64,000 nt of DNA from Arctopsyche grandis (taxonomy: Eukaryota > Arthropoda > Insecta > Trichoptera > Hydropsychidae): NCBI RefSeq assembly GCF_051622035.1, contig NC_135361.1, forward strand, positions 3,105,001 through 3,169,000, given 5' to 3'. Position numbers and translations under genes: made by a program. Positions 1,082 to 62,818 of the stretch are shown piece after piece. The notes under the pieces are model-generated. The model saw only the letters and a list, made by a program, of their open reading frames with translations, made no database searches and had not been told where the DNA came from. The stretch's first letter is position 1, and every line of letters begins with the position of its first letter.

Positions 1082-9076
<7,995 letters not shown>

Positions 9077-11658: not shown

Positions 11659-11743
<85 letters not shown>

Positions 11744-20334: not shown

Positions 20335-23300
20335 TTAATGCGTTTTGTCGTACGTGTTCTTATGTTGGTATCCCGTGACGTATCCTGACGTGTCTGCAAG
20401 ATCCTTTCGACCGGCTATGCCCTTGCCCTTTCCGGTTTCGTCGAATCGCTGCTTGTGAGATCCAGTGTATTTGGAAGTGTCCGTTAGTCGCTCGACGGCT
20501 GCTGGAGATTTGACGACCTGCCGAAAAATAATAATAAAATTACTTCAGAAATGTTTCATTTAGCCAGCAGCATGGCTCGGTGGCTGGGCTTTTGCCTAGC
20601 ATCGACAGTATATCTGTAATGTTTACTTGAGGTGTGCGTGCATTCGCACGGCACATTTTAGGTATTATTTCCTAACGCATGCGCGCTTTAAGGTCTGTTC
20701 ATACTTAACAGCACTGCACGGCTTCAGTACTGCACGACTCCGTTTCAAATATGTCATTTTATTACATTTCTATTGATATCTACCTACACATCGCGGTCAC
20801 GTCACGTTTACAGCAATTTGGCCGAGTGCAAGGCAAAATCGGCTTACTTATACATTAGAGGCCATGACGATACGGCGCAATATTGCTTACGTCGTATTGT
20901 CGAGTATTTACAATATGAATGCATACACGTGCATTCGTAGCTACGCGTCAGAATACAAGTCAGCAAAAATATTTTGACGTTTATCGAACGAAAAATTATG
21001 GATAATCGTGCTGTTGTTGGAAGAAGAAGCAATAAAAAAGCACGGAGGCGTTTTGATGTGCATCCCATGTTAAAAAATAGAAAAACCGAAGGAGAGTTTT
21101 GGACACTGTATAAGAAGCTTGTGGATGATGGACAATTTTTTTTAAAATATTTCCGTAAAAAATTAAAAAAAAATTTAAATACTTTTTAAATATTTGCGCC
21201 AAAACCATGTCGAAAAATTGAACAGCTGTCAACTGTCACTATCGATAATTGGTCCAAAATAGCAAAACGGCAGACTCATGGCACGTAATTCGCGTGTATA
21301 TTTCCGCGATGGCCAAAAAAACGGATACGATACGTTGACGGATGTTGCTGTAAGGTATGAACAGGAAATGTCGGGTACTGCTGTAAGCCTGCCGTGGCGT
21401 AAACGTGACGGTTGGTATGAATATACCCATACAAAATGTACCAAAGAATACTTTTCGTACGGTCGGATACCTGCTGAAGTCGGTACGTGCTGACTAGGTA
21501 TGAACAGACCTTTATGTGTTCATGCGTTGTTGTTTATTTTGTACTTGGTTATGTACAGTGTGGTTTTTTTATTAGAACAGTGATGTGCGGTTGTTCTTGT
21601 GCGATATTCATGAACAACCGTCTCGTTCTCCGACGAAAGGGTCTCTTAGATTATATTCGTTGGGGGGGTGGTGGCCTCAAGTTGAGGGCTTTAAGGGCCA
21701 AATTCCTTGACCTTTACAGCGGACTTAGAATGCTGCTGGTCAGATTTTTGTGATTCCAGGTCGATCGTTCCCTATCAGAGTTTGTCAATTTTTCTGATTT
21801 CATTATTGAAAAGGTTCCTGAATTAAATTGGATAAAAACCTTCCTACCTACTATGTCACCACTATCTGAGTATGATTCATGTACAAGTTAAAATTCATAG
21901 ATGTCTCGTTAATTTCGAGTTTTCATTGTCTTGTAATTCAGCGACTAAAAATGCTGCATTGTTTGTAATTGGCCAGGAAGGGCGCATTGAGTTTTACCTA
22001 CTAGGCCTTCCTGGTATATAGGAATATGTACATATGTATATAATAAAACTATGAAGGCGGAAGTATAGACATGTATTATTAGTTCGGTGATTATTCCGCA
22101 AAAAGTGATTTCGCACATGTCACTAAAATCCCGATCACGGATTATCTGGCACCCGAAAATTCCATCCATAGAGAGCTACTGACGCAAACTATCATACTAA
22201 CGAGAACTCGAGTACCAGATATTCCGTATTCGCGATTTTCGTGGCAACGATTGACGTGTACGTTATCGCAATGTGCGAAATAATCAGTTTTCCGTATTAT
22301 TAGTTTGTTTGATTGTGGTGTTTCATTGTATTTTATTTATTTATTTAATCAACCATGCACACAGATTAAGGTACCGGTACACACATTTTATTAAACGCGA
22401 CATCTATGGTCAAACGATTTACAGCCACCTGTCACAGCGATATCTATGGACAAATTTATGCAGCATTTTTAATCAGTGAAAATCGAGATGGTGAATAGCT
22501 TGAATTTTTGCGAAAGGATTAGAACAGGGTTGCCAATTTGTTGTAACCGTTTCAATGAAAGCAGATCAATTGGCAAACTGTGATAGGAAATGATCAACCA
22601 TGGAGTCAAATATCCAAGATCTGGCCAGCAGCATACGGGTTAGAACCCGTGATCACACAATTTAAAGCATTACATGCTAACTATTAGGGCCTTCGACACA
22701 GTCAATATTAGTTGCAATTTCATCAATATGGGACCTAAATACGGATGATATTGTAAGTAATATTGACTGTGTCGAAGGCCCCATGATCTATGCTGCTGAT
22801 TATGCAGCATACCAAATTAAACATTCACTAGACCCAGCCGTGCCAACTTAATCATTTACATATGCCCTCTTCTGGATTTTAAAACAAAATCCATGCATAT
22901 ATATTATATGTATGTATACACAAAATAAGAGATATAGGCATTTAAGCACCGAAACGAGCGCTAAACAAACAGTAGTCGTAAATAACAAACAACTACAATT
23001 AATTAGCAAGATTTGGATCTTCCGTTCAATTTATAGCACAAAAATTCAGGTTTCAAGAACGTCCTCCAACAGGTGACAGACAATAATAAATAAAACAAAT
23101 ATAAATCGCGTGCGGCATACAGCATGTTAACGACAATGCCACTTATCGCAATTACGTTCTCCGCGTGAATCTATTACCGGCACACCAATTTCGCATACAA
23201 ACGATGAGACCGCCATTATCATATGTGATTTATAAAACACAATCAGTCGCAGATTTGATTTTTAATTGTCATATCAAGCGTATGATACGCCCCGGAGTCA

Positions 23301-25276
23301 TCATCGAATCAAATATTACCGTGTGTGCCTGACTGTTTAACTGCCTATTCAAATATAATATATATGCACGTATCTATTGCGCAATCGTTATTGCGATATC
23401 GACTGTGTCCAGTATGAAGTCATCGCTGATTGCGTGGAAATTGGATTTTGTTGCAATGAGTGGCATTTAATAGTTTAAAAAACAAATCAATTGATATGGA
23501 CGCGTCAGATAGCATCGAGGATTTCACGTTGTGAAATTTCCGTAGGGGTCGACCGGGCCGAATTGGTCTGAGTGCCCGAGTACGTACAAATATGGGACTA
23601 ATGTCTTACTAGTATACTTCACGTATATTTTTATTGCATATGTGCCAGGGATTAGCCCAAGGCGATACATTTGGTTAGATTATTTTTTGCCCGCAAATAC
23701 TATATTTGATGATTGGTGCTCTTTGAATACTGGCTTACTATAGCTGGTAATTGGACTATTCGTCACATTGGGGTGGTCACAAAGACAATTTTTGCCATGA
23801 AAATCGCGAATACTCAATATTTGGCACTCAAGTTCTCGTTACTATGATAGTTATCGTTAGTATGATGAACTTTTCAGCTGTCAGATGTTCCGTTATAGAG
23901 ATTTTAGTGACTTTGTGACGAGTAATTTGTGACCAGTTATCACCGAACCACTATAGCTGTGCACCTGATTTCGCGTTCGCACCAAAAAGCCCTCGACGTA
24001 TATAACAGTCAGACGTATATAACAGTCAGTGGCTGTTATATACCAATTCATAGAGGGGGCTGTAGTAGCTTGTCAACCATACCGGTTATCAAATGCAGAC
24101 AAAAAGTGCATGCATATATACTATACTGGGAGGGCTGCAGGCCATATGGAAAAATAGCATGCATATATATACTATACTGGGAGCGCTGCAGCCCATATGG
24201 ATGGAAAATAGCATGCATTTGTACTATACTGGGAGTTCTGTAGCCCCGCAGCCCATATAGACGAGCCGCCACTGATAACAGCCAATAAGGTCTCCCGACC
24301 CATCGACCAATGAGAGTAGCCGCTGGGTATAAATATTGGGCGGTTTCGGTCCTTGCCTCATTTAGAGCCGACAGGCCGACGGATCAAGTATTAACAATTT
24401 TTTAAACATAGCAGGATAGAATATAATAAAGACATCTGATACACAAAAAATTTGTGAGAAATGCAAATATTCAACAAATTCGAAATGCTAATAAATCGAA
24501 TTTACGAGAAATTGAGGAGGAGAATACCGATATATTGGATCCGTCATAATAATTAAGCTAGAAAAACCAGAAAATTCTAGCAGGAGATGGTCGGTCTGTG
24601 TTTTTTAATAACCACAAGATTTTGCAACAGCGCATTTGGCCGAGATTTGAACCCACGACCTCTACTGGTTGCAATACCTCTACCAGTGCACTATGCCGTG
24701 GCTATCTCCTTACCAACACGATAGCGGAAGCTATCGACATTTTTCAATGTCGAAAAAGTCCAATGTCAATTAGCAAAAAACATATTCGCAAAACTATCTA
24801 AAACAATAAGGCAAGGAAAGAAAATAATATTTTTTTAAAGAACTTCCAATTATAATTACCCCAGTTCCTGTGTGTCCCGGTGGTCCGCAATTTGACATCT
24901 TGGTCTTGATCTCCTCGACGTCGATCTTCTTGTTCTTGGCCAGGTCGTCGAGGAACTTCTTATAGTCCTCGATGCCAACCTTGAGCGACTTTAACTTCTT
25001 GAAGTAGATACCTGTGTCCGTCGTGGTGATCTTCTTATCAATGACCTTAGCCTGCTTCATCCACTTGTCACTCTGTGACAGTGTGATCAATTTGCCATCG
25101 GATTTGCCTTCACCGAACCTGCTGAAGGTTTTGAAGGTCTCTTTGAAGGTGCAACCCCCGGCCGGCGTGGGTGATGGACACGCTTCTCCATTGGATGCTG
25201 ATTTGACATCCCCGTTGCTGGCTTCGATCTTCAGCTCTGACAGCTCTTTGACTGGTGCGGCTTCTGTGTCCGTCAT
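20335..25276 (-). CDS. TPPP: tubulin polymerization-promoting protein (TPPP/p25-alpha, ringmaker)
   Basis: There are two coding exons on the minus strand: 25276-24860 (139 codons) and 20517-20335 (60 codons plus TAA), total 199 aa. The join is phase 0, with donor GTAATT and acceptor TTTTCGGCAG. Exon 1 has the p25-alpha core ([19 protein letters not shown], then [19 protein letters not shown] and [12 protein letters not shown]). Exon 2 has [20 protein letters not shown], then GKGIAGR and SGYVTGY near the end. Family members bind and bundle microtubules. The length fits the family (176-219 aa). The ATG lies two bases after a splice acceptor (TTTTATTCCAG), so at least one 5' non-coding exon lies at higher coordinates. 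The 4.3-kb intron is packed with transposons. Confidence 0.95.
20572..20612 (+). mobile_element. SINE head fragment
   Basis: GCCAGCAGCATGGCTCGGTG matches the tRNA-like head of the local SINE, then diverges. Probably a truncated remnant. Confidence 0.5.
20691..21511 (+). mobile_element. PIF/Harbinger-type element with transposase remnant
   Basis: The termini AGGTCTGTTCATACTTAACA (20691) and TAGGTATGAACAGACCT (ending 21511) are inverted. A TTA target duplication flanks them (20688-20690, 21512-21514). The subterminal CAGCACTGCACGGCTTCAG is matched loosely inverted near 21465-21490. A frame from 20998 reads [20 protein letters not shown] and EFWTLYKKL, the N-terminal motif of Harbinger nucleases, then ends after 62 codons. 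The rest of the catalytic domain is gone. It lies in the TPPP intron. Confidence 0.85.
21731..22019 (+). mobile_element. SINE, 5'-truncated, tail type A
   Basis: The body (GATTCCAGGTCGATCGTTCC) and the 3' hairpin at 21971-22014 (stem CCAGGAAGG/CCTTCCTGG) match the copy at 7862. Most of the tRNA-like head is missing. Confidence 0.7.
22082..22293. mobile_element. Mutator-like MITE, family member 1
   Basis: It starts GTTCGGTGATTATTCCGCAA and ends GCGAAATAATCAGTTTTCC. A perfect 9-bp target duplication GTATTATTA flanks it (22073-22081 and 22294-22302). The two halves are near-palindromic. Relatives are at 23746, 46731, 47189, 48722, 49031 and 49621. Confidence 0.82.
22333..22645 (-). mobile_element. 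SINE, minus strand, diverged tail
   Basis: Read on the minus strand, the head (CGTATGCTGCTGGCCAGATC) is followed by GACTCCATGGTTGATCATTT and AAACGGTT, as in the other copies. The 3' end is a type-B-like tail (TCCATAGATATCGCTGTGAC) finishing in (AAAT)n. Confidence 0.65.
22687..22781. repeat. 95-bp near-perfect palindrome (foldback MITE)
   Basis: The first 24 bases (GGGCCTTCGACACAGTCAAT and four more) are exactly the reverse complement of the last 24 (22758-22781). The inner arms still pair partly (CAATTTCATC against GATGATATTG). No clear target duplication. Confidence 0.8.
23746..23949. mobile_element. Mutator-like MITE, family member 2
   Basis: It starts GGTAATTGGACTATTCGTCA and ends CAGTTATCACCGAACC. 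A perfect 9-bp target duplication ACTATAGCT lies at 23737-23745 and 23950-23958. Opposite orientation to the copies at 46731 and 47189. Confidence 0.85.
24027..24274 (-). mobile_element. non-autonomous hAT element with internal minisatellite
   Basis: The termini CAGTGGCTG (24027) and GAGCCGCCACTG (ending 24274) are flanked by ATAACAGT/ATAACAGC (7 of 8 bases equal). Inside, a unit of roughly 47-55 bp containing ACTATACTGGGAG and CTGCAGCCCATATGG is repeated three times. It is the same family as 7840-8484, shorter and without the SINE. Confidence 0.8.
24336..24440 (+). promoter_or_regulatory. possible solo-LTR core (TATA box plus AATAAA)
   Basis: GGGTATAAATATTGGGCGG near 24336 is followed about 90 bp later by AATAAAGACATCTGATACAC. 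This spacing is seen in LTR U3-R regions. No LTR boundaries or target duplication were found, so it is only suggestive. Confidence 0.25.
24590..24735 (-). mobile_element. second tRNA-like SINE type, minus strand
   Basis: Read on the minus strand: GATAGCCACGGCATAGTGCA, then CTGGTAGAGG, then a B box GGGTTCAAATC, then an A-rich end. This looks like a tRNA-related SINE head and short body. It is distinct from the SINE at 7862. Confidence 0.45.
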
Positions 25277-25279
25277 GTC

Positions 25280-25804
25280 TGGAATAAAATTAAACGCTCC
25301 GTGTGAAAACCATATAATGGATAAAATAAGTCTTAGTAGAAGCCTTTCCATTTGTGGAGGCCTACCCCCACTCTGTGGAAAATATGCGCAGGCTAGGATC
25401 GTGACTTCTGCGTACCTTTTTAGAGGAATGGGGATAGACCTTTATAAATGGAAAGACTTGTTGATAAAATCACAGAAAAATTAAATTCTAAAGTTAGTGA
25501 TTAATTTATAGCCCGCTCGTGAGCATTAACTAATAACATACTCAGTTTGATGACATGACTTAGAAATGTTCAATTAAAAATACTAAAAAAATTCAATGTG
25601 ACACAAATAATTGAATTTTGATTAAGAATTGATTAAGAAGTAGCATCCAAACTAAATTTTAGTAGAAAAAATGGAAACGACTAGGTACATACATATATGT
25701 ATATAAGGGCGGAAACACAGAGATGGACGGAACGGCACTCGGTCTTGAACGCGGTCAAGAAAGGATCTTATTGTTTCTCCTACATTTCTTCAAATACGGG
25801 ATTT
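25280..25804. other. TPPP 5' intron sequence
   Basis: Follows the acceptor at 25279-25280 (minus strand). Apart from GC-richer sequence near 25350-25440, nothing supportable is seen. Confidence 0.4.
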
Positions 25805-27487: not shown

Positions 27488-27790
27488 GCACACTCGTCTA
27501 ACAGATTGCTCCAACGGAACGAGTGTGCTGTATGGATTAAGAATTATTTATTAATTATTTAAATAGTACATCTTTGGTCAAACGGTTAACAGCCACTGAG
27601 ACATCTATGGACAAATATTTGCAGCATTTTCTAATCGGTGAAAATCGAGATGCTGAATAACTCGAATTATTGCCAAAGGCTTAGGAAAGGGTTGCCAATT
27701 TTTTGGAACTGTTTCAATAAAATAAATTGGATAGGAAACGATCAACCTTGGAGTCACATACCCAAGGTCTGGCCAACAGCATACGGGATA
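27488..27790 (-). mobile_element. SINE, minus strand, tail type B with perfect hairpin
   Basis: Head, body (GACTCCAAGGTTGATCGTTT, AAACAGTTCC) and AATGCTGCA match the SINE family. The tail then differs from type A: TCCATAGATGTCTCAGTGGC leads to a hairpin at 27488-27528 with a perfect 10-bp stem GCACACTCGT/ACGAGTGTGC and a 21-nt apical part ending CTGTTAG. Confidence 0.7.
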
Positions 27791-30700: not shown

Positions 30701-33504
30701 AAAATGATTTCATATATAGATGAATTCAATCAACAGCAATGACTGATCAAATTTTGAAACTTATATTCCGCTTTCTATTCACACTTTCGATATAAAAACT
30801 GAAAGAACCTGCATTTGCATTTCGGCACAGTGAAAAATCGCGTACGCTCGAAGTACGCATATATTTATACGAAAATAACAACTTTCTTCGATGTGTTTGA
30901 GAAAATTGTTATGTAAAAGTATTCATTGGATTAAAAACAACGTTTGATTGTAACTTGAGATACATAGCTAATTTTTTTCAGCCGCTTTCATTATAAAAAC
31001 CAAATCGCACATATTTTTTCAATGTATTTTGGAACACCAAAACATTTCAATTTAAATATAATGATAAATAACATAATTTTATTGGAATTGTGTCCGTATA
31101 AATAAAAATAAACAAGCCAACAATTATTTCGCATCGTTCGTTCTACATATATAACCAGTACATCCTGTTTTGAAACCTTCACTGGGTCACTTCTAATTAA
31201 ACAATTCACATTTTGAACATTGCATAGAAACGTTTGAATGTTAGAAAACGTGATGTTAGTATTTTTTTTGTACTATAATTGCGTCACACTCACGTTTACT
31301 GTATAGATATGATGAAGAAAAAATATGGTAATAAAATTAAGCATGATCTCATCGATGAATACTTTCAAGAAAACATGTTATCATACCGAATATATTGTTT
31401 TGTTTGATTCATTATTTAATGCTGCAACTTGGAAACGATTCCTAAATATTTCTACAATATCAAACTACGTATCATCTGTGGATATAATATTTCTGAAAAT
31501 ACGTATGTCTATTTATACAAACGTTACACGTTTTATCAGCAAACAGTTCACCAAATTATCTAATATAATATCTCGCTTTATCTGATAATCGGAAATTAAA
31601 TGCATTTTAACCATGAATGTTACAATGAAATAAAATCAACAACTCTTGGGAATATCGTTGTTGAAAAAATATTCGATTATATAAATATATGTACATAAGT
31701 ATGTAGGTATCAAATTTTGATTTTCACTCGTGAAAATTCTTAGAAAAAATCATGCAATCTTTATATTGTTTCCGTATGTTAGTTAATATAGTAAGAACAT
31801 TCGAAAAATGGTGTGCGAAATTTAAACGTGTGGGTGTGAACTATTTTTTGCAATCAATCAATCAATTGTTCGGATCAATTATTCTATTCTGAGTATAATC
31901 TGGATTAGAATAGACTCAATTTATTTTTTTCCTATCGAATTGTCGGCACGAGAGTGTGGGTTGAGTCGTAATCGAAAAGATTAGAGTCGAATTGAATAAA
32001 ATTGTAGTGGAAATGAATATTCAATGTTTTTTAAGGCGATTATTATTGCGCATTGTATGTAGTATAATAATTTGCACGCAACGAATTTCGTTCGTCACAC
32101 ATTTCACTAAAACACATGGAAGTAACGTAATTTACTTTTTTGGGCTTGGTCATTGTTCATATATTAACTTTCCCATAGAAGGTACGATCGATATGTGAAA
32201 AACGCTCTAAATGCCTTTTATTTTTAACTGAACATCCTTCCTTCTCATTCCAGCCCCTTCAACCGACACATGTAACGAATTTTTGCGCGCTTTGTTTATT
32301 TTCAATCAATATCAGGCAACACCTGTACAATATGTAATAATTTATAAATACATACTCAAGTCAATAAAGAAGACTAAATGTTCAGCGACACGATTGCGTG
32401 CACCAAGTCACTAGCAATTTAAATAACAAACATTCAAAATGGCGTACGTTAAAATGGCCGACCACCTAAAAATTTGTAGGTTATCTCGCCATGACAATAG
32501 TCGTAGTTGAAGACGCTACGATAGATCTTAAGGCATGTCAAGGGACTTCATTTTTGAGAATTTCTTGTCTACGTGTCTACGAAGATATATAGATATAAGA
32601 AATTGAACCCGCATTGGATCAAAAATTCAGCAATTCTGATCCTTTAATCGTTTATCCTCACAATTTTATAAATTTAAAGAAAAACTTCATCAATCAAATC
32701 CAGATCAGATTGGAAACCTGGATAGTTTTCACACTATCAAGTGATTTGAGATTTGACCCTCTTTTTCTCAGTTCTATATAATGTATTCGAAGCAAGTAGG
32801 AAACTAGAACGTTCTATTTAGTTTCGTGACCTAGTAAACTTTAGCGAAGAAAATATACTACCATCAGAAAGCTCAAACTCATAATTATTTATATTGCAAT
32901 ACATTATGAAAACACCACATACACTTTCGTACAGCATATTTTGATCAATTATGTATTATACTACACATACATATATTATAATAAGTACCACGCCTTTTTT
33001 CACTTACAGGTCATGAACACGTGTGTATATAATATTCAGACTCAATATAACATATTATGTATTTCGTCATTGAAGAATTGTGTGGCATTGAATGTGTTAG
33101 TATTATATTTTTTTTTTAAATACATACATATTATATTTAATATAATCAATACGAAATAAATTGTTCGCAATTGAATTTTTTTTTATATATATGTACATAC
33201 ATATAGTATAATATAAAATATGCGAATTTGCATCACAACAAGTCAAAGTTTTGCAAAGGCTTATGTTCAAATTTAAAGTAATTAATATAAACTATTTTTA
33301 TAAAATTAATGTAAAATAAACAACTCAAAATTTGAATAGAACTTACAATTTTTATAATGCAGAATAAAAGAGTCCTCAAATATTTCATAATGGTTCAATC
33401 AACAAATGTATTTACTAGAAGTCAAAATATATACATAATATCTACCAAAAACATACATATTTTCACATATGCTTAAGAATAAAATATGAAATTTATGAAA
33501 AAAA
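27791..33504. other. long AT-rich stretch, no gene seen
   Basis: No ORF with recognisable content. Around 28610-29485 there are AAAAAGCCGGTTTTCGGCTT-type inverted motifs and a terminus-like TTGGAAGCCCTA (ending near 29480), suggesting a decayed hAT-like element without a matching left end. The remainder shows only low-complexity TACATATGTA-type sequence. Confidence 0.4.
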
Positions 33505-33845
33505 CATAAACTTGGATATTTGTGACTCCAAGTCGATCGTTTCTTATCAGAGTTTGCCAATTTATTTGATTTCATTGTTGAAACGTTTCCTCCATTAAAT
33601 TGGCAAAAATAATCCTACCTGCTATATCACAAATATCTGAATTTGATTTATGTACAATATGTAAAATTTTTATCTTCAAGTCTTAATCCATAGATTTCTC
33701 TATGTATTAATTCATTAATTAATTAATCGTTAATTTTGTGTTATTCAGCCTGTCGAAATACAGTGATTTACGTAATAAAAATGCTGCAATATTTGCAATT
33801 AATTGTCTAGGAAGGCGCATTGGGGTCTGTCTGTTAGGCTTGCCA
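33505..33845 (+). mobile_element. SINE, tail type A (left partner of a tail-to-tail pair)
   Basis: The body GACTCCAAGTCGATCGTTTC and AAACGTTTCC matches the family. The 3' end AGGAAGGCGCATTGGGG leads directly into a second copy in the opposite orientation. Confidence 0.65.
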
Positions 33846-34140
33846 GGAAGGCTTGACAGGAAGACTCCAATGCGCCTTCCTGGACAATTAATTACAAACA
33901 ATGCAGCATTTTATTATTACATAAATCACTGTATTTCCAGAAGCTGAAGAGCACGAAATAACAATTAATTAAATAATTAATCCATTGAGACATCTATGCA
34001 TTTTAGATTTGTAGATAATGTTTACAAATTCTACATACAATAAATACAGAAGACTTGTGACAACAGGAAAGATGATTTTTTGCCAATTTTGAGGAACCGT
34101 TTCAACAATAATCAGATAAAATTGGCAAACTCTGATAAAC
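33846..34140 (-). mobile_element. SINE, minus strand, tail type A (right partner)
   Basis: Minus-strand reading gives TTTGCCAATTTTATCTGATT, AAACGGTTCC and a CCAGGAAGGCGCATTGGAG tail. It meets the copy at 33505 tail to tail. Confidence 0.65.
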
Positions 34141-34149
34141 ATATGTAAA

Positions 34150-35395
34150 ATAAAATAAAATAAAAATAATTCTGATTTTTGACACTTTCCGATCGACCTT
34201 CAAATATCACTGAAAATAACAAATTTCCCACTTAATTGGCAATATATATTGAATTTTTAATAATCCATACACGATTTTGAACTCTAAATAAGAAAAAACA
34301 AGTAAAATAACCAAAATTTTCTATATCCGCATACGGAAAAATCCAAGTTTTCCACGAAATTTCCTTATCTGATAATCAAGCACTGACTTAATACTATACA
34401 CCAACACACACCGACACCCAAATAAAGCCACTCGTTTTAGCAACCCTCTTCGACTTGGACAAAGTCGGGAAAAACCTCGCGTGCGAAAATCCACACGGCG
34501 GCGATCGCCAACCGAGGGTGTGCGTGCCGAATGAAACCGCACGCGTAAATCACCTTAGAACATATTAGACCCCAAGTGGGTGATCACTTCCGACCTCGGC
34601 GACTAAAAATATAAACGATATCACGTATTATTGGGTGTGGGACTTCCATCCACCATTGGTGTCGACCTTCTGTGACCTTGTGACCTCGTGTGGTTCCACC
34701 ATGTACTATATCGTGCTTGTTTACTAGTATTGTAATAAAATGGCCGTGCGAAAAACAAAGGCTAATAAATTTCAGTGAGAAATTGCGTAGGGACTTATGG
34801 GCTCACACATTGAGTGTGATATATGTAGAGCCCAGTTTATATCATTTGCCTGATGACTGATGTTTCATTTGATTATGATTGTAATAAATGTATTGAAAGG
34901 TTTCGCAATGTATTTTCCTTTCTTCGTCCACCCATCTATACTTTAACTCTCTTGGGTACCATTTTAATACTTCTGCTGTCCACATTTCTTCTAGCCACAT
35001 GTCCTACCCATTAACATTACAATCTCACACGTGTATTTTTTTTTTGTACTAGTCTCTATACTGGTGAACTACGGACGAAATACAAGCAGGAGACAATGAA
35101 GAGGATATTAGGACAATACAACTACTACAGGGCTCTCTACTCTCTACTAACAAGGGGTTGCAGGGGTTGAAGGACATGTGTCTCACTTTGAGGCCAGTCT
35201 CAGGATGAGAGTGGCCTCCCTACGTCGTCGTATATTTATATCGTCAAATATTTTGCTTTTTGCCGCGTCTTCTCATTTCCGCTTATCTATGTATGTTCAG
35301 TGGATGGAGCTATGTATGTACTTCACCGGCCATCATAAATATGTAGACATTAAATTGATTAATTATTATTATTATTTTATAATAATTAATCCATC
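34150..35395. other. intergenic; GC-richer island at 34400-34720
   Basis: No coding exon is supported. The GC-richer island has GGCGGCGATCGCCAACCGAG and GTGACCTTGTGACCTCGTGT and is a candidate promoter or 5' non-coding exon, for instance of TPPP, whose 5' UTR must lie to the right of 25280. Confidence 0.35.
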
Positions 35396-35741
35396 GGTTG
35401 CTGTATCTCCAAACGTTACGTTTGCTGATGTTTGTTCCGGAGCTGCTGGGAGCATGACACCAACTGTTAATACTCTTTCGACTACAAATGCTAAGAGTGG
35501 TGATACAACTATGTCTACTGTCGCATCATCGACTATTTCATCTGTTCCTCAGTGTCGTGATTCTACAGTGACCGTATTGCCTTCTTCTTCTTCTTCCGTT
35601 TTATCTCCGCTGGCAAGTCTTGCGACTTCAAATCAGTCATTTCTTGTTCCAAAAAGACTCACGCGCCAGACTGAGAGATCGAAAAATATCAATCTACTAC
35701 CAAAACGTACGCGGTCTCAGGACCAAGGTGGCCGCGTTTAA
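35396..35741 (+). pseudogene. LINE ORF1, C-terminal fragment
   Basis: A Ser/Thr-rich frame (VSPNVTFADVCSGAAG ... SSSSSVLSPLASLAT) ends with TAA at 35739-35741 and overlaps the start of ORF2 in another frame. The position and overlap fit a truncated ORF1; no zinc knuckle is retained. The open frame extends upstream into non-element DNA. Confidence 0.5.
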
Positions 35742-38541
35742 TACGGCGATTTATTCTATTGTCGATGATATGGTGGCGTTAACTGAAACATGGTTAACGC
35801 CATCATTTTTTAATTCGGAGTTCTTTGATTCTTCGTGGACAGTGCATCGTCGGGACAGAGAGCAACGACGTGGTGGGGGTGTTTTATTTGCTTCTCGTGT
35901 CTGGTTGCGGTCTGTCAGGTTGAAGAACTTTGAAACTCCTTCTGGCGAGGACTTATGGGTGAGAGTTGATTTTGTATTTGCGAGAGTTTTTATTTGTGTT
36001 GTTTACATTCCGCCCGCTGCGAAAGACGATGTATATGAGTTATTGTTTGCAAATATGATGAATGTACGTGATTTCATAAATGAACGTGACATATTATTAA
36101 TAATGGGTGATTTTAATATGCCTAGTGCCAATATTCATGTCCGCAATAAATTTAATTTTGTTATTTCCTATTGCGACCTAGTACAGGTTGGTTCACCCAT
36201 TAGTCCAAGTAAGCTTGATATTATGTTGGTGAATGAATCCAATGTGTCAGCAACGATGATCCTATGCCCAAAAGGAACTGCGATCATCCCTGAGGACCTA
36301 TATCATGATGCATTACAAATTGAGCTTCTGTTTTTGTCTTCTGTGAGACCTGTTTCAGCTTGTTCATCTGTTGGGATTCCTTCATCACGGTGGAATTTTG
36401 CTCGCGTTGATTCTGAATTGGTTTATAATGAGGTTCGTTCTATGGACTGGCGCCAAATGTACCTCATGAATACTGGTGATGCTGTTGAATTTTTGTATAA
36501 CACACTATATAATATTTTTGACAGTTATGTTCCTCGGTTCATCAGTTATCCTAATTTAGAACTACATCGTCGGGTTTTTCCACCGTGGTTTGGGTCCAAA
36601 CTTATAACTGATGTTCGTGCAAAATGGTTGTCTCATAGAAGATGGAAACGTAGCCAATCATTTCGTGACTATGAGAAATTTCGGATTCTTAGGAAGATCG
36701 TGAAACGTGGTGTGAGTGAGCGTTATACCCTCTATCTCAAAGAGATGGAGAGTGCTATCGCTAGTAATCCTCACCACTTTTTCAGATTTATTAAGAGTAA
36801 GCATATTTCACATGGCCTTGAGCATTCGTTCTCATTTAATAATAAAAGTTGTGTCGGTCCTGAGATCGCTAAAGCTTTTGCTAGTTTTTTTAGCTCTGTA
36901 TTTGATCAGAGATCACCATCCCTTGATGCTAATTTGGCTTCCCAAATTGGTACTGAAGGTGTTATTATAGACATTCCGCGGGTCTCGCTTGGAGATGTTA
37001 GGATAGCAATTTTGAAGCTGAAAGGGTCTGTTGGGCCTGACGGTGTGCCCCCTGACGTATTAAAGGCATGCTGTAATTCGCTCTTAGAGCCTCTTCAGTT
37101 TATTTTTAACCTTATTCTGGATTCTGGTAATTATCCTGATAAATGGAAATTATCTAGAGTCATTCCCATTCATAAAAGTGGCTCTAAAAATGAGGTTGAA
37201 AATTACAGACCTATTGCTATCATCTCGGCTATTCCCAAAATTTTCGATAATATCCTTCACCGTTTGATTCTTTTGCAGTTCAAAAGATTGTTGTGTGATG
37301 AGCAGCATGGTTTTTCACCATGTCGTTCCACTACCACTAATCTTGCCTGCTTTTCATATTATACCATGTCTAAAGTTGACCGTGGACAACAAGTTGATGT
37401 AGCCTACTTTGACTTTCGAAAAGCATTTGATCTTGTCAACAATGACGCTCTTATGATCAGATTAGCTGAAGTGGGCTTTTCTCCACGTCTTCTTAAACTC
37501 TTTGCTTCTTATCTTAGTGATAGGAAGCAATTTGTTAGATATGGTATTTATGAATCTCCTTCATTTTTTACGCGATCTGGTGTAACTCAGGGGTCCACCT
37601 TAGGCCCTTTACTATTTACAATAGTCATTAATAACCTCCCAAAAGTACTACGCAATGCTTCATGTCTCTTGTTTGCTGACGACGTTAAACTATTCTTTGC
37701 TGTTAAGGATGAGAGGCAAGCCTCTCTCCTTCAAGCTGATATTAACGCTGTTTTAGAGTTCAGTTCCAGTTTAGGGCTTGAACTGAATACTAGTAAATGT
37801 GCTATTATGAGTTATGGACGTGCGAATTCGCTCTATTGTCACGGATATTCCATTGGATCCGTATTGTTGAAGCGCGTGGAATCAATGGTCGACTTGGGTA
37901 TCACTTTTGATCCTCAATTCACCTTTCACAACCACATCAAGACAATCGCTGATGTTTCCTTTCGTCGACTTGGATTTGTCTTGAGATATGCTAGATTATT
38001 CTCCAACCCCTTGTCTTCTCGCTTGCTTTTCAACTCGCTTGTTAGAAGTAAGCTAGAGTATAATGCAATTGTGTGGAATCCGCACGAAGCAAACTACTCT
38101 CTTATTATAGAAAAAGTGCAAAAAGCATTTCTTCGTTTTCTTTATAAGAAAGAGTATGGGTACTACCCATATCTCTATCCTACTCCTTTCCTTTTGGGCA
38201 TGCTTGGGTATAATTCCCTTGAACTTCGGAGAAACTTCTCGTTAATTCGTTTCGTTCTCCAGCTATTGCGTGGTAATACGTCATGCCCGTTGTTGCTGGA
38301 ACAGTTGGGACTTTATGTCCCTAATAATTATGTGCGTGGTAGACATCATCATTTAATGGTTGTACCTGCTGCTCGCACAGTTCTTTTTCGAATGGCTCCT
38401 ATTCCAAGAGCTATTCGACTTCTCAATGAAATCGTTGCTGCTGTCCCTGAATGTGATATTTTCCACCTTGGGGAGCGTAGATTGTCGGATATTATCTTAA
38501 CATATTTATCTGGTAACCTGCGCTCATCATTACTTTCTTAA
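35620..38541 (+). CDS. LINE ORF2: AP-like endonuclease and reverse transcriptase
   Basis: 973 codons without a stop. The endonuclease domain is at about residues 20-240: YYQNVRG, the catalytic-Glu motif TETWL, VVYIPP, GDFNMP and LDIMLV. The reverse transcriptase follows: GPDGVPPDVLKAC, NYRPIAIISAIPKIFD, YFDFRKAFD, SGVTQGSTLGPLLF and the catalytic FADDVKLF at residue ~685. The C-terminal region has HINCIEKVQ-like text (SLIIEKVQKAFLRFLY). There is no RNase H domain, fitting jockey/CR1-type elements. The 973-codon start at 35620 is the first ATG in frame; the true start may differ. The protein would nick target DNA and copy its own RNA by target-primed reverse transcription. Confidence 0.88.
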   Translation: MRLQISHFLFQKDSRARLRDRKISIYYQNVRGLRTKVAAFNTAIYSIVDDMVALTETWLTPSFFNSEFFDSSWTVHRRDREQRRGGGVLFASRVWLRSVRLKNFETPSGEDLWVRVDFVFARVFICVVYIPPAAKDDVYELLFANMMNVRDFINERDILLIMGDFNMPSANIHVRNKFNFVISYCDLVQVGSPISPSKLDIMLVNESNVSATMILCPKGTAIIPEDLYHDALQIELLFLSSVRPVSACSSVGIPSSRWNFARVDSELVYNEVRSMDWRQMYLMNTGDAVEFLYNTLYNIFDSYVPRFISYPNLELHRRVFPPWFGSKLITDVRAKWLSHRRWKRSQSFRDYEKFRILRKIVKRGVSERYTLYLKEMESAIASNPHHFFRFIKSKHISHGLEHSFSFNNKSCVGPEIAKAFASFFSSVFDQRSPSLDANLASQIGTEGVIIDIPRVSLGDVRIAILKLKGSVGPDGVPPDVLKACCNSLLEPLQFIFNLILDSGNYPDKWKLSRVIPIHKSGSKNEVENYRPIAIISAIPKIFDNILHRLILLQFKRLLCDEQHGFSPCRSTTTNLACFSYYTMSKVDRGQQVDVAYFDFRKAFDLVNNDALMIRLAEVGFSPRLLKLFASYLSDRKQFVRYGIYESPSFFTRSGVTQGSTLGPLLFTIVINNLPKVLRNASCLLFADDVKLFFAVKDERQASLLQADINAVLEFSSSLGLELNTSKCAIMSYGRANSLYCHGYSIGSVLLKRVESMVDLGITFDPQFTFHNHIKTIADVSFRRLGFVLRYARLFSNPLSSRLLFNSLVRSKLEYNAIVWNPHEANYSLIIEKVQKAFLRFLYKKEYGYYPYLYPTPFLLGMLGYNSLELRRNFSLIRFVLQLLRGNTSCPLLLEQLGLYVPNNYVRGRHHHLMVVPAARTVLFRMAPIPRAIRLLNEIVAAVPECDIFHLGERRLSDIILTYLSGNLRSSLLS

Positions 38542-38898
38542 TTTGAATGTGATGAATGAGTGGAATCTTAATCTACTCTCTTCCATTTGGGCCTCGCTGT
38601 GATTTTATTTTTTATTCATATTTTGTTTTATTTTATTTTATTTTTTCTTTCTCTTTTGTACATTTTTATATACTATTTTAATTTTGATCAGTATAAACAA
38701 AGAATGGGATTTATGGATTTTATTTTTAATTTTTACACTTTTGTTATTTTTTTTTTTTTTTCTCTCTGAATGATGTATTATTTTCCTTTTGTTACTTTTT
38801 TTGTAATTTTATTTTACCATGTTTTCTGCTTTTGCTTTTTTCCTTTATTTACAGTTTACTTGTTTTTATATCATGTTTTTATATATTTTTCAAATGTA

Positions 38899-38941
38899 GG
38901 CCATTGTGGCGCATTAGGTTCTTCCTGTAATGCCACAATGG
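38899..38941 (+). other. 3'-terminal RNA hairpin of the LINE
   Basis: The 10-bp perfect stem CCATTGTGGC/GCCACAATGG (38901-38910 with 38932-38941) encloses a 21-nt apical part GCATTAGG...CCTGTAAT, which can form a further AGG/CCT pairing around TTCTT. The same layout ends the SINEs at 8225-8267 and 27488-27528, with different stem bases. Likely recognised by the element's reverse transcriptase (inference). Confidence 0.7.
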
Positions 38942-38960
38942 TCCAAAACTATTAAATTAA

Positions 38961-39744
38961 ATAATTATATTATTATTTGTATTATCTATATATTTTTTAT
39001 ATAGACGAAGGGGATTGCACTATTCTCCCTATCGTCTGGAATAAAAAAGCTATTGTTATTATTTTTTTATTATTTACTCTCACGAAGTTTAAAATTGCTT
39101 GAAATACAATTTTCAATAAAAAGCTCTTTTTCCTATAATGCTGTACATTAACATTAGAATAATATAATACAATGATTACTAACAAAATTTAATTAAAATA
39201 GATATAAGATGTATTGTGAACATAATTTCGTAATAATAAAAAGCATTTAAAAATCAAAAATAAAATAACGAGTTGTGAATTTGCTATTTATTTTTAATTT
39301 ATGACCCATTTAACATTTATTATTAAAAATATATTTCTAGTAAATAAATTAAAGCCCATTTCATAACTGTTTTTGCTTCTTTGATCAAATTGTATTTCGA
39401 GCAATGTGACATTTGTGCAATTGATTCCGAACACCGAGCAATTGATTTTTAATATATGTAGATAATAATTAGCCTTTTTAATAGCTAATATGTAGGTCAA
39501 CCACTAAAGAAATAAAATTATTTAAAACTACAAATCTACAAATCATATTCAATGTTCAATTCAGAGTAAGTGTTAATATAAATAGAAAGTTACAAATAAA
39601 TGTTATGTTAAAAAAAACTTAAAAATCATCCAAAAAAGAAACTCAATTTAACATACAAACATTCATCAGAATTGAAAAACTCAAACTTTCTAAATCATTT
39701 AAATCATTTTCACATTTATAAAATTATCTGTAACACGTATATAT
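38961..39744. other. no feature seen
   Basis: AT-rich DNA between the LINE end and the hAT element; nothing supportable. Confidence 0.4.
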
Positions 39745-42637
39745 CAGTGGCGTGCGGTCCATGGATGCGGTGGATGCGGCGCATCCCCTATAACCTTAAA
39801 AAGCCAAGAGTATTTTTAATAAATATTTGAATTTCGCTTCGATGTATTCTTAGTGATGTACGTGATTATGATGTAGTATATGATATATATTTCACATATC
39901 ACGTGTTTTTTGTTACATGATGCATTATATAGGATCTTTTGATAATTTTTATTAAGGATTCGCATAGGCCGCATTCGCATAGGCCGGCCACAGGCGAGTG
40001 ACGCTGGCGAGTAGACGCTGAGTGAAGTGCGCGCGCGTCATGGATTCGGAGTTCGGACCGATCCCATTTGCGCATGCGCACTATGAGGCTGTCATATTCG
40101 CGCGGACGCGTTGACACTTGTTTAACCTCTACGGTGGATTCGGTTTCTCTGTTTGCTTATCTATTGAGTTTCACTTGGAAGCCGCTGTTGATCGATATTT
40201 CCGCACGCTACGCCCCAAGTTATTTATCAAAAAGCTAGCCGATTCATTTCTTTAGACGAAGTTAATCATTTATACTGTAAGTTGGTTATTTTTTACTTTT
40301 GAATTAAGTTTTCATTTAAATTAGTTTCGTCTAACTTTATTTTTAGTTTACTGTTCCACTACTTACGAGTTTTCATTATTGCCTTTAATATGGATATCGA
40401 AAATAACAATGAGAGTGGACTTGTCGTCGAGATCAATAATAATTGCAATTGTTTAATTGAAAATGTGCTGAAAAGAAGATTTGCTTCTCTCCCATTTAAT
40501 GAAAAGGAGATTATTGTTAAGAGCCCCAAACCCACACCAATATTAAATATTCAGTCTAAAACAAAAACATTTAAAAGGTATTTTAACACAGAAACATACG
40601 AAAAAATTTCATGGATTTGTGGATGTGCTCACTTAACGAAATTATTCTGTTGGCCATGTATTTTATTTTCTCAAGAAGTGAATGTCTGGAGTAAATTTGG
40701 ATTTTCTGACCTAAACAATTTAAGTAAATCGCGCAAGAGACATGAATGTTCTCAAGCTCACATATGTTCTGCTGCTCAATTTAAAAAATTTGGAAAGGGA
40801 CCTCGTATAGAAAATTTTTTAAGTGCTCAATTTAAAGCAAATATTGAAATGCACAACAAAGAAGTTACTGCAAATAGATACATTTTGTCGAAATTAATAA
40901 GCGCGATCTGTTTTTTAGCAAAACAAGAACAACCTTTACGAGGACATTTTGAGCACCAGGAATCGGAAAATATAGGGAATTATATTGAATTGCTGTATCT
41001 GTTGAGTGAATCAGACATAAAATTGAAAACTCATTTAGATAACTCTACGGTGTTTACTGGACTATCGAACCATATACAAAATGACTTGGTATCCGCAATA
41101 TCAAAAGTCTTGCTAGATGAGATTAAAACTGAAATACGTGCATCAAAATTTGTTTCCATAATTGTGGACGAATCTACAGATATCAGTCGCAAAGCTCAGC
41201 TATCTACTATTTTTAGATATGTAGATGAAAATAATGAAATTCAGGAGAGATTTGTTGGATTTGTCGATGTTAGTCCCAATAGAACAGCTAATGCTCTTTT
41301 TCAGCACATACGTGAGACCTTGGAAGAATTTGGTTGTTTGGACAAATTAATTGCACAAACGTACGATGGAGCGGCTGTAATGTCCGGGGAGCATAATGGA
41401 GTGCAACGAAAAATTCGAGATATTTGTCCTAATTCTTTATTTGTCCATTGTTACGCTCACAGATTGAATTTAGTTTTGTCGCAATCTGTTAAACATATAT
41501 CCGGATGCAAACGTTTTTTCAGCCGTATGTTGTCATTTTCAACTTTTTTTTGTAAGTCTTCAAGAAGAATTTCCCTTCTCGATTGTCAAATAAAAAAACG
41601 ATTTCCCACTGCTGCCCCTACACGATGGAACTACAATAGCAAAATTTTAAATATGATATTAGAATATCAAACAGAATTAATGGAAATATTTAATCAAATA
41701 ATTAATGACGAAGACGAATGGGATACTGATGCTGTCATAAATGCTGAAGTCCTTCATCGTTATTTAAAAGAGTTTGAATTCAATTTCAATTTGCATTTAT
41801 TTTCTGCAATATTTAATTCGGCAGATTTTTTATTTGAAATTTTACAAAAAAAAACCTTTGACATATCGTATTGCGTAAGTGAAATTAAAAAATTTGTAAA
41901 ATATTTAGATAACAAAAAAGACGATTTTGATTCATTGTGGAACAAAGTAATAACTAAAAATTTTAATAGAAAAAGAAAATATGCTGAATGTGAAGAAGAT
42001 GTGAAAACAACGTATAAACTTCACTATTCTGAAATTTTAGAAACTCTTTCAGTAAATACAACCAATCGATTTCGAGATATCGAAAATTTAAAATTTCTCG
42101 AATTTTTTAACGTCAAAAAATTTAAAGAATATGAAAATAATTTTCCAGATTTCCTATTTAAATCACTCCACCTAACTTATGGAAAATACTTTGATTTTAT
42201 GAAATTAAAAAGCGAATTAATTTACATGTACTCAACGCAAGATTTTCATTTGAAATCTATAAATGACGTAAAGGAATTAATTGTGAAAGATGATCTAATA
42301 GACGTTTTGGAACAAGTATTTAGTTTAATACAATTAATTTGTACGATACCTTCCACGAGCGCATCGGCTGAACGATAATTTTCGACTATGAAAAGAATTA
42401 AAACGTTCACCAGAAGTAGTCAAAGTGAAGAAAGACTCTCTGGTCTTGCTTTAATTGCAATCGAAAAGAAAATAATGTCAAATTTAAAAAACAATAAAAA
42501 ATTCTATGATGCGGTTATCGATGAATTTTGTAAAAAGGAACGAAGAATAAAATTAAATTTTAAAAAATAAATTGGTCGGTTTTTTTTTTCAAACAAGGGA
42601 CAGCATCCCTTGTTTGAAAAGTCACCGCCCGCCACTG
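39745..42637 (+). mobile_element. near-complete hAT transposon
   Basis: The inverted termini CAGTGGCGTGCGG (39745) and CCGCCCGCCACTG (ending 42637) are flanked by perfect 8-bp target duplications GTATATAT (39737-39744 and 42638-42645). It encodes one transposase frame with a single internal stop. GC-rich promoter-like sequence lies at 39960-40120. A perfect 15-bp hairpin (42586-42620) lies 17 bp inside the right end, and a GGATGC/GCATCC hairpin near the left end. Confidence 0.93.
40390..42570 (+). pseudogene. hAT transposase, ZMYM1-like (TTF-type zinc finger, DUF4371), one premature stop
   Basis: The frame from ATG 40390 spans 727 codons including one internal TAA. A TTF-type zinc finger is at residues ~75-130 (ISWICGCAHLTKLFCWPC, later RKRHECSQAH). 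The RNase H-like catalytic part has IIVDESTDIS (~residue 257), TYDGAAVMSG and FVHCYAHRLNLVL. The C-terminus has the hAT dimerisation motif ASAER-stop-FSTMKRIKTF. The only break is TAA at 42376-42378, where hAT proteins usually have Ser; downstream the frame stays open to TAA at 42568-42570. Whether the shortened protein is active cannot be told. It may be catalytically dead through loss of dimerisation. Confidence 0.9.
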
Positions 42638-49870: not shown

Positions 49871-50244
49871 ATGCTCGTAGTATGTAAAATACGTATTTAG
49901 ACAAATAAGTGTCAATTAAATTTTTAAATATAATAAATGATTGATTATACATATTTATAATCACAAATATTACTCGTGTTAATCATTTTATATTTAAATA
50001 TTACAAAAATAAATTAAACAACAAATTTTATGAAATTGAGGCTATGCGCAAAAAAAGTATATCTGCGACCAAAATTAGGTACTGTCAAAATAAATCCAAT
50101 AAACTCAGTACAAACGCATGTGTCGAATACGTTTGAATAGTCGTTGATTTTAGCACAAAATCATTTCAAAAACATTCACATCTTCATTGATGATCGCATA
50201 ATTGAATAGAGTACGTATTTCATACATTATTTCCGACAATTTCG
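49871..50244. promoter_or_regulatory. PDCL upstream region
   Basis: AT-rich; no clear TATA box or initiator could be singled out. It contains the 5' UTR of the phosducin-like gene. Confidence 0.35.
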
Positions 50245-51108
50245 ATGGCTACTCTAGAAGATAGAATCCTCGGCGAGAAAACCCACTACTACTGCAGCAG
50301 CAGTGAGGACGAAGACGACGATGACAAATCGGGATCCGAAGGGAGGAGCAAAGCGCCTGCAGCCCCAGCCCCACCCCCAGAACAGAGCATAAACGAATGG
50401 GGGGGCTCGGCCACCAACACCGGACCGAAAGGTGTCCTACATGACTGGCAACGCTTCAAACAACTCGAAGCAGAATCCAGAGCGGACCAAGAGCTCGAAC
50501 GTTTGGACCTCGTGAAGAAACTCACCCTGACATGCATGACCTCTCAAGAAGAAGACCAGTACAAGAAACAGAAAGAACTAGACGACGAACTCGACGAACT
50601 GCTCAACGATGAAATTCTACTCAACTTTCAAAAGCAAAGAATGCGCGAAATGCTAGCTCAAGCCGGCAGACTACCTCGCTTCGGTAAAGTCATCCAATTA
50701 AAGTCGAGTGATGCATTTCTGGACGCCATCGACAAAGAGAATAAGTCGGTGACTGTTATAATCCATCTATACGAGTATGTAGTCGAAGCCTGTCAGGTGA
50801 TGAACGGGTGTCTGGTCGCCCTGTCGCAAGACTACCCTTGCGTCAAGTTCTGCCGCATGTCCAGCTCGTTGGCCGGAGTCAGCAAGAAGTTCAAAGCCAG
50901 CGGAGTTCCAGCTCTACTCATATATAAAGCGGGCCAAATGATCGGAAACTTTGTGAGGATCACTGATGTATTGGGCGATGATTTCTTCGCCACGGATGTG
51001 GAGAGCTACTTGATAGAACACGGACTGCTGCCTGACAAGAGCTTCGTGCCGGAAATCGTACTGTCTCCGCAGAATAAAGACGAGGATAGCGACGTTAGCT
51101 TGGATTAA
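50245..51108 (+). CDS. PDCL: phosducin-like protein (PhLP1/PDCL)
   Basis: Single exon, 287 aa, start ATGGCTACTCTAG. An acidic Ser-rich N-terminus (YYCSSSEDEDDDDKSGSEG) precedes the conserved helix-1 motif GPKGVLHDWQRFKQLE (residues ~60-75), a charged helical stretch, then the thioredoxin-fold domain from ~145 (RFGKVIQL, VIIHLYEYVVEACQVMNGCL, YPCVKFCRM, VPALLIYKAGQMIGNFVRIT). The protein ends in an acidic tail. The helix-1 motif is typical of PDCL rather than PDCL3. Family role: co-chaperone with CCT for assembly of G-protein beta-gamma dimers, cytosolic. AATAAATTG at 51404-51412 is a candidate poly(A) signal. It lies convergent with UBA2. Absence of introns may mean an ancestral intronless gene or a retrocopy; the reading frame is intact. 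Confidence 0.95.
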   Translation: MATLEDRILGEKTHYYCSSSEDEDDDDKSGSEGRSKAPAAPAPPPEQSINEWGGSATNTGPKGVLHDWQRFKQLEAESRADQELERLDLVKKLTLTCMTSQEEDQYKKQKELDDELDELLNDEILLNFQKQRMREMLAQAGRLPRFGKVIQLKSSDAFLDAIDKENKSVTVIIHLYEYVVEACQVMNGCLVALSQDYPCVKFCRMSSSLAGVSKKFKASGVPALLIYKAGQMIGNFVRITDVLGDDFFATDVESYLIEHGLLPDKSFVPEIVLSPQNKDEDSDVSLD

Positions 51109-51703: not shown

Positions 51704-53033
<1,330 letters not shown>

Positions 53034-62247: not shown

Positions 62248-62818
62248 TATCTCCTTCATTTTTTACGCGATCTGGTGTAACTCAGGGGTCCACCTTAGGC
62301 CCTTTACTATTTACAATAGTCATTAATAACCTCCCTAAAGTACTACGCAATGCTTCATGTCTCTTGTTTGCAGACGACGTTAAACTATTCTTTGCTGTTA
62401 AGGATGAGAGGCAAGCCTCTCTCCTTCAAGCTGATATTAACGCTGTTTTAGAGTTCAGTTCTAGTTAAGGGCTTGAACTGAATACTAGTAAACGTGCCAT
62501 TATGAGTTATGGACGCGCGAATTCGCTATATTGTCACGGATATTCCATTGGATCCGTATTGTTGAAGCGCGTGGAATCAATGGTCGACTTGGGTATCACT
62601 TTTGATCCTCAATTCACCTTTCACAACCACATCACATCACAAGACAATCGCTGACGTTTCCTTTCGTCGACTTAGATTTGTCTTGAGATATGCTAGATTA
62701 TTCTCCAACCCCTTGTCTTCTCGCTTGCTTTTCAACTCGCTTGTTAGAAGTAAGCTAGAGTATAATGCAATTGTGTGGAATCCGCATGAAGCAAACTACT
62801 CTCTTATTATAGAAAAAG
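62248..62818 (+). mobile_element. LINE fragment, same family as 35396-38960
   Basis: Aligns to 37554-38114 with about eleven substitutions by eye. There is one nonsense change (TTA to TAA within CTAGTTAAGGG at 62465) and a short ATCACATCACA duplication at about 62630. The right side is cut exactly where the LTR element begins. Confidence 0.88.

Follow-up and report, generated by a model that had tools for sequence, protein, structure and literature searches.

The window analysed here, a 64,000-nucleotide stretch of the Arctopsyche grandis genome (contig NC_135361.1, positions 3,105,001 to 3,169,000), contains a LINE and several SINEs that end in related hairpins. Also present are host-type genes (a DUF676 serine esterase at 7054-7653, a p25-alpha domain at 24797-25441 and a phosducin domain at 50206-51105), long (TA)n arrays at 11665-11740 and 52308-52379, and a 691-aa open frame with a DUF4371 domain at 40303-42375, which we take to be, probably, a relative of the hAT-like transposases. 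The LINE, here termed LINE L, lies on the forward strand. Its 989-aa frame (35572-38541, stop to stop) encodes an endonuclease/exonuclease/phosphatase domain (Pfam PF03372, E 6.8e-7) and a reverse transcriptase (PF00078, E 1.7e-27), and its phmmer matches are LINE-1 ORF2p and R2 chains; the reverse transcriptase motifs presumably place it on the CR1/L2/Jockey side, and suggest nothing finer. The frame is followed by a T-rich 3' UTR (38542-38898), a hairpin (38901-38941) composed of a 10-bp lower stem, an internal loop, a 4-bp upper stem (UAGG/CCUG) and the apical sequence UUCUU, and a 3' tail at 38942-38970, TCCAAAACTATT and then, in copies, an AAAT-type repeat.

The lower stem of this hairpin, CCATTGTGGC and GCCACAATGG around 21 nt, is exactly as the initial annotation had read it; counting flanking and wobble pairs it reaches 13 bp, and the folding z-score is -6.35. 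The same annotation ended the element at 38941, which proved too early: the alignment to the window runs on to 38964-38973 in six of seven fetched copies and to 39003 in the seventh, the AAAT repeat starting about 12 nt past the hairpin, and the hairpin itself is identical letter for letter in all seven. When the genome (475.7 Mb) was searched for copies of 38841-38960, all 40 places scored of 1091 candidates matched over the full length, the 39 non-self places at 99%. The hairpin is 3'-terminal in this LINE, whose high identity among copies suggests recent activity. A 572-bp fragment of LINE L, 96.9% identical, lies at 62249-62820. Directly downstream of LINE L, at 38999-39060, is another short repeat, which ends in TTATT repeats, has a possible hairpin of its own (GACGAAGGGG...CCCTATCGTC) and resembles pieces found in two fetched loci (L047 and L077); this repeat seems to be the 3' terminus of some other retroelement.

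SINE A is represented by a body at 7860-8226 (forward strand), with a central domain common to SINE B and a tRNA-like head in which we take motifs identified by eye to be A-box-like and B-box-like (the latter is GGCTTCGATCCC); ARAGORN, run with bacterial settings, found no tRNA in the window. Two covariance models are referred to from here on: R1 was trained on LINE rows only, and R2 on everything but SINE B. The hairpin of this SINE A copy follows its body at 8227-8267 (R1 E 5e-6), and others lie on the forward strand at 21973-22014 (with one extra base on the 5' side; R1 E 0.051, and R2 E 5e-7 with A in sample) and 61369-61410 (R1 E 0.0022). A decayed hairpin at 33807-33847 on the forward strand belongs to a second copy placed tail to tail with that of the hairpin at 33843-33883 on the reverse strand (R1 E 4.9e-7). 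The stem CCAGGAAGGC/GCCTTCCTGG that had been assigned to SINE A is exact in this last hairpin and imperfect at 8227-8267, where the arms read ...GGT and ...CTGT and nine of ten pairs form, one of them G-U. The two tail-to-tail copies span 33450-34180, and their hairpins are partly common, forming a long inverted repeat.

SINE B lies on the reverse strand, with its body at 27530-27784 and its hairpin at 27488-27528, where 11 bp are counted with a closing wobble and R2, trained without B, gives E 0.021. Its central domain is 89% identical to that of SINE A over 55 nt (two window copies compared), and the tails differ. The stem GCACACTCGT/ACGAGTGTGC that had been claimed for this copy is exact. 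The C at position 2 of its apical part, claimed as conserved, is an artefact of framing one old copy: 30 loci read differently, giving a family stem GCACACTCGTC/GACGAGTGTGC around a 19-nt inside, GCGTTGGAGCAATCTGTTA, and in 26 of 30 fetched loci, the window copy among them, at least 9 of the 10 stem pairs are intact in the most B-like stretch. SINE B is an old, large family (40 places scored of 1630 candidates, with non-self identities of 83-91%). A variant B tail, TACACTCGTC or close to it with the inside GAATTGGAGCGATCTGTAAT or close to it, was seen at L042:61-100 (minus), L011:2132-2171 and L085:3032-3071, and is perhaps a subtype, SINE B2. A further SINE B-like body, 76% identical to B, lies at 22400-22685 on the reverse strand; the model search of the window found no tail hairpin for it.

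Outside the window the same design ends three further LINE groups (C, G and F), a sister of LINE L (H), and SINEs with a G-type tail. C was found by the loop pattern and then by DNA similarity, and G and F via a reverse transcriptase motif; pairing was not used in finding them. With the known stems excluded, the exact loop pattern occurs at 18 places genome-wide, which by eye are decayed copies (11 L-like, 5 A-like), a place matched by chance and a locus (L054) carrying the sole new stem, that of family C. This is a repeat family of its own (40 places scored of 711 candidates) with the stem CTGGTGTGAC/GTCACATTGG, the apical part GCATTGGGGTAACCTGTCAG and, by eye, about 60 nt between hairpin and repeat tail; it is classed as a LINE on the basis of a LINE-like C-terminal reading frame upstream, read from an alignment, and one of 13 C hairpins has a weak protein match to LINE L (E 0.003). 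LINE G (L115 and L116) has CCACAGTGAC ... GTCACTGTGG with one broken pair in each, and in another copy (L044) a LINE protein with 38% identity to LINE L ends 110 nt upstream of the hairpin. LINE F (L093) has CCATAGTGAC ... GTCACTATGG, with protein homology to LINE L of 42% upstream; each of the 40 places scored, among 1565 candidates, covers the hairpin with at least 87% identity, and L090 is a decayed relative. LINE H (L053, L062, L065 and L077) is a close sister of LINE L with the same lower stem and a different apical part; only L053 of the four copies has LINE protein upstream, and there the identity to LINE L is 78-81%. LINE H, the G copy in L044 and the SINEs with G and F tails came to light when the fetched loci were searched with the models.

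Among the SINEs outside the window, the two with G tails show body identities of 85% over 78 nt (L018) and 76% over 203 nt (L049), and L018 carries what we take, by eye, to be a B-box-like motif, GGTTCGATCCC. A 35-nt body match tentatively makes L075 a SINE with an F tail. The design is absent from LINE families F1 (L088), which ends in another small hairpin, and F2 (L089), which has no visible one; nor was it recognized in what was fetched of L091, L092 and L094 or in 471 nt of L118 and L119, stretches in which the 3' ends are unlocated.

The initial annotation had described a 21-nt apical part with conserved letters, among them GG and CTGT. The letters are indeed conserved, but the part is not open: they form the two sides of a 4-bp upper helix. 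In six of eight folded copies, a lower stem of 9-13 bp is followed by an internal loop (3-6 nt per side), above which a second helix, 3-4 bp long, closes an apical loop of 4-5 nt (the loops in the folds read UUCUU, GUUUA, GCAA, GUAA and ACUAC). The second helix stands in a conserved register (UAGG/CCUG, UGGG/CCUG or UGGA/UCUG) in five of those six folds and is shifted in the A copy at 33843; two G copies take another minimum-energy fold, though the same pairs can form. In all, the conserved register is absent at minimum energy from three of the eight folded copies.

Across 23 aligned hairpins the upper stem reads UNGR/YCUG with a U-G wobble. Of the 23 rows, 22 retain the U-G pair at columns 15-27, the top pair of the helix alternates between AU (11 rows) and GC (10 rows), and the helix is broken at columns 17-25 in four rows. 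Upper-helix cells pair in 85 of 92 cases on the sense strand and in 49 on the antisense strand, a bias that points to an RNA in the LINE/SINE sense. RNAalifold, run on the 23 rows, predicts the lower stem alone, so the evidence for the upper helix consists of single folds and pair counts. Mean identity over the 21 pairs among seven family representatives is 0.80 in the upper stem, 0.72 in the internal loop, 0.59 in the lower stem and 0.30 in the apical loop, which is the least conserved part of the hairpin.

Covariation was measured by pair counts, with shuffled (500) and slid controls. In the 23 hairpins of LINEs and SINEs, 10 of 14 pairs have changed on both sides, and the covariation score is 0.737, against a shuffled mean of 0.216 (none of 500 as high) and at most 0.23 in the slid controls; columns 4 and 5 show UA, AU, GC and CG. 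The ten LINE rows taken by themselves have 7 of 14 pairs changed on both sides and a score of 0.433 (shuffled mean 0.215, 0/500 as high; slid controls at most 0.11). The count of both-side changes was equalled by 3 of 500 shuffles for the 10 rows and 5 of 500 for the 23, and for the count of further pair types the corresponding numbers are 22 and 13 of 500. The 23 rows are family representatives, partly picked as intact (17 from 95 motif-defined lines, plus L117, L018, L049, L090, L075 and the window B), so the percentages paired are biased upward. Loci with at least eight of ten pairs number 17/21 for C, 29/30 for B, 26/30 for A and 9/9 for L, counts that use each locus's most family-like stretch and also lean upward. 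The suggestion, first made from three stems, that compensatory change reflects a selected RNA structure is thus borne out by more copies, by three further LINE groups and a sister, by both controls and by out-of-sample models.

Among these models, R1 finds the LINE L hairpin at E 1.6e-16 (in sample) and, in the window, four SINE A hairpins (E 4.9e-7 to 0.051), with a fifth matched in part (E 0.17). SINE A can therefore be said firmly to have the same kind of hairpin as the LINEs. Run with default filters, R1 does not return the hairpin of SINE B at E<=0.1; with filters off, on eight B loci, six score 10.5-14.2 bits (E 0.03-0.46), one is matched in part (8.9 bits) and one not at all. R2 gives eight matches at E<=5 in the 64 kb, one of them the reverse strand of the LINE hairpin, and the window SINE B is the last of the eight; with filters off it matches 15 of 20 B loci on the B hairpin (E 0.0017-0.85; 11 reach E<=0.1), the other 5 showing no match at E<=1. 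The apical letters of B resemble those of L or A to a degree equalled by 132 and 70 of 2000 shuffles, which is not significant, and those of LINE G and LINE C to a degree reached by 0 and 2 of 2000; with family letters compared, A agrees with LINE C at 18 positions and B with LINE G at 16. That SINE B has the same kind of hairpin is supported, less strongly than for A.

This is a real, selected RNA hairpin, which most likely acts as a recognition element for a LINE reverse transcriptase; we consider it very probable that it is the 3' recognition element of a set of related stringent-type LINEs (L/H, C, G and F) and of their dependent SINEs. Several features that characterize stringent-type LINE/SINE pairs are found here: a LINE with endonuclease and reverse transcriptase, a common 3'-terminal sequence (the G stem is common to LINE and SINE, and the A and B stems are on no LINE seen here), a hairpin by a short repeat tail, and compensatory change. 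Because of published precedents, we infer that the reverse transcriptase binds the hairpin. The LINE protein would grip the lower stem as a shape and would recognize the letters of the upper stem and internal loop. As in zebrafish L2, the region that does so would probably lie between its endonuclease domain and its reverse transcriptase domain. Target-primed reverse transcription would then begin in the AAAT tail that follows the hairpin. The same upper part would be carried by the SINEs that this protein copies, some of which have a LINE stem (G), A and B having stems unseen on the LINEs here.

LINE/SINE 3' hairpins recognized by a LINE protein are a known kind, and what differs here is where the conservation lies and the number of stem types per genome. 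In the open-licence papers covered, we found no description of this hairpin. The stem swapping, which the initial annotation did not recognize, has precedents in reports of stem change and exchange (PMC3747384, PMC4176376). Among the closest is the zebrafish pair ZfL2-1 and ZfL2-2 (Hayashi et al. 2014, PMC4176376), whose 3' tails likewise have a stem-loop with upper and lower stem regions and downstream repeat units. According to that report's account of the tails, the stems are exchangeable (ZfL2-1 at about half the rate) and the loops are not, stem disruption is not tolerated, and bipartite recognition is proposed. As there, the stem seems replaceable provided that it is paired, with specificity residing elsewhere in the hairpin; the zebrafish stem-loop is needed for retrotransposition. 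Unlike in ZfL2, where the loop carries specificity, conservation is here lowest in the apical loop and resides in the upper stem and internal loop.

Other known tails are alike in some respects. Eel UnaL2 and UnaSINE1, as described in PMC5135761, are a LINE and a SINE with a common 3' hairpin, a small internal loop in the stem and short repeats after it, but they have a GGAUA loop and TGTAA repeats, neither of which is seen here; our hairpins have variable loops and an AAAT tail. In monocot L1/SINE tails, as summarized in a review (Ohshima 2013, PMC3747384), a variable stem with compensatory mutations is combined with conserved loop letters, so that, as here, a compensated stem occurs with conserved letters elsewhere in both LINE and SINE; unlike there, where UCU stands in the loop and CGAG lies 3' of the stem, we see no constant UCU and no CGAG after the hairpins. 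Plutella PxLINE1 and PxSE5 (PMC8010984) are, similarly, an insect LINE/SINE pair with a common 43-bp 3' end; they have ATGT repeats, the main text of that paper uses neither "hairpin" nor "stem-loop", and the comparison is by description only. An Rfam scan of the window gave no family at threshold; within 38800-39000 there are six matches at E<=10, none to a LINE family, and a match to MIR530, scoring 20.6 bits where the cut-off is 85, is attributed to chance.

The way in which a LINE reverse transcriptase chooses its RNA has been worked out closely in few cases. In this one genome, several SINE tails and the ends of five LINE families (L, H, C, G and F), whose lower stems differ except between L and H, follow one design and amount to an unusually rich natural mutagenesis series. 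The series predicts that the upper stem, the internal loop and the closing C-G matter and that the lower-stem letters and the apical loop do not, and it makes the choice of partner by the SINEs testable.

The stems of A and B raise the question of their origin. LINE G and the G-tailed SINEs have a common stem, CCACAGTGAC, if single changes in copies are allowed (L044, L115 and L116 compared with L018 and L049), as simple capture of a tail predicts. The initial annotation had envisaged LINE families with the A and B stems as well; sought by narrow patterns, these yielded no clear case. Among the fetched loci, with some places represented twice, A stems lie beside SINE bodies in 31 of 36 lines, in unclassified DNA in 5 and beside LINE protein in none, and B stems beside SINE bodies in 17 of 23, in unclassified DNA in 6 and beside LINE protein in none. 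The A stem occurs at 128 places with an upstream flank unlike the commonest SINE one (among the 100 of these that were listed, the SINE TTG at -4 to -2 is kept, by eye, in 79 and missing from the other 21), and at two places without T at either base before GGCC. The B stem occurs with a non-SINE base at -3 at five places, two of which are SINE B loci (L065 and L071).

We tentatively propose that SINEs A and B may be natural stem-swap mutants, whose lower stems were rewritten after capture and now match no LINE, and that they nonetheless multiplied to high numbers because the LINE protein reads only the internal loop and the U-G-bearing upper stem and takes any lower stem that pairs. Were this true, the genome would record the two-part recognition shown for zebrafish L2, with specificity in the upper stem and not in the apical loop. 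A credible alternative, which we hold with similar reserve, involves no drift: each SINE may have acquired tail and stem together from a LINE family that either died out or was not sampled. Capture of this sort seems to have happened for G, where LINE and SINE have a common stem; against it, the searches with the A and B stems, narrow as the patterns were, and the neighbourhoods of those stems gave no LINE. Between stems rewritten after capture and a LINE that is extinct or was missed, the balance is about even.

Readings that do without recognition by the reverse transcriptase fare less well. A Helitron terminus and the ends of DNA transposons were considered as well and set aside. The hairpin, which sits in the 3' UTR, could have been selected for another step in the life of the LINE and SINE transcripts: their 3'-end formation, their stability or their export. 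tRNA-headed SINEs and LINEs are normally transcribed by different polymerases, and their transcripts have little in common here but this tail. With a common 3' hairpin reported, in the published descriptions, as required for retrotransposition in stringent LINEs (PMC4176376, PMC5135761), we regard selection at such another step as unlikely. A process acting on DNA might instead keep the arms complementary: template switching in replication, which makes palindromes of quasi-palindromes and requires no selection on RNA, would change both arms in one step, and when stem A is compared with those of L, C, G and F, 4-5 pairs are indeed changed on both sides. Yet such switching would tend to erase internal loops and wobbles, and here an unpaired internal loop persists and the U-G wobble, a pair in sense-strand RNA alone, is kept in nearly every row; it also leaves unexplained the conserved letters and the 3'-terminal position behind different 5' bodies, and we consider it very unlikely as the source of the covariation.

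A chance likeness among hairpins picked by eye has next to no probability, and is already refuted for the LINE and SINE A: stems alone are not rare in 64 kb (a loose scan for 9-10 pairs with 17-25-nt loops gave 275 lines), but every model match in the window (7/7 for R1 at E<=1, 8/8 for R2 at E<=5) falls inside these elements, the apical consensus with at most three mismatches has three window matches (the LINE and two A copies) where 0.06 are expected, and the strict apical pattern occurs at 780 genome places and its reversed control at none. Two further matches of R2, at L077:890-928 (minus) and L067:2091-2134, score 17.0 and 17.8 bits, the latter with a SINE-like body upstream.
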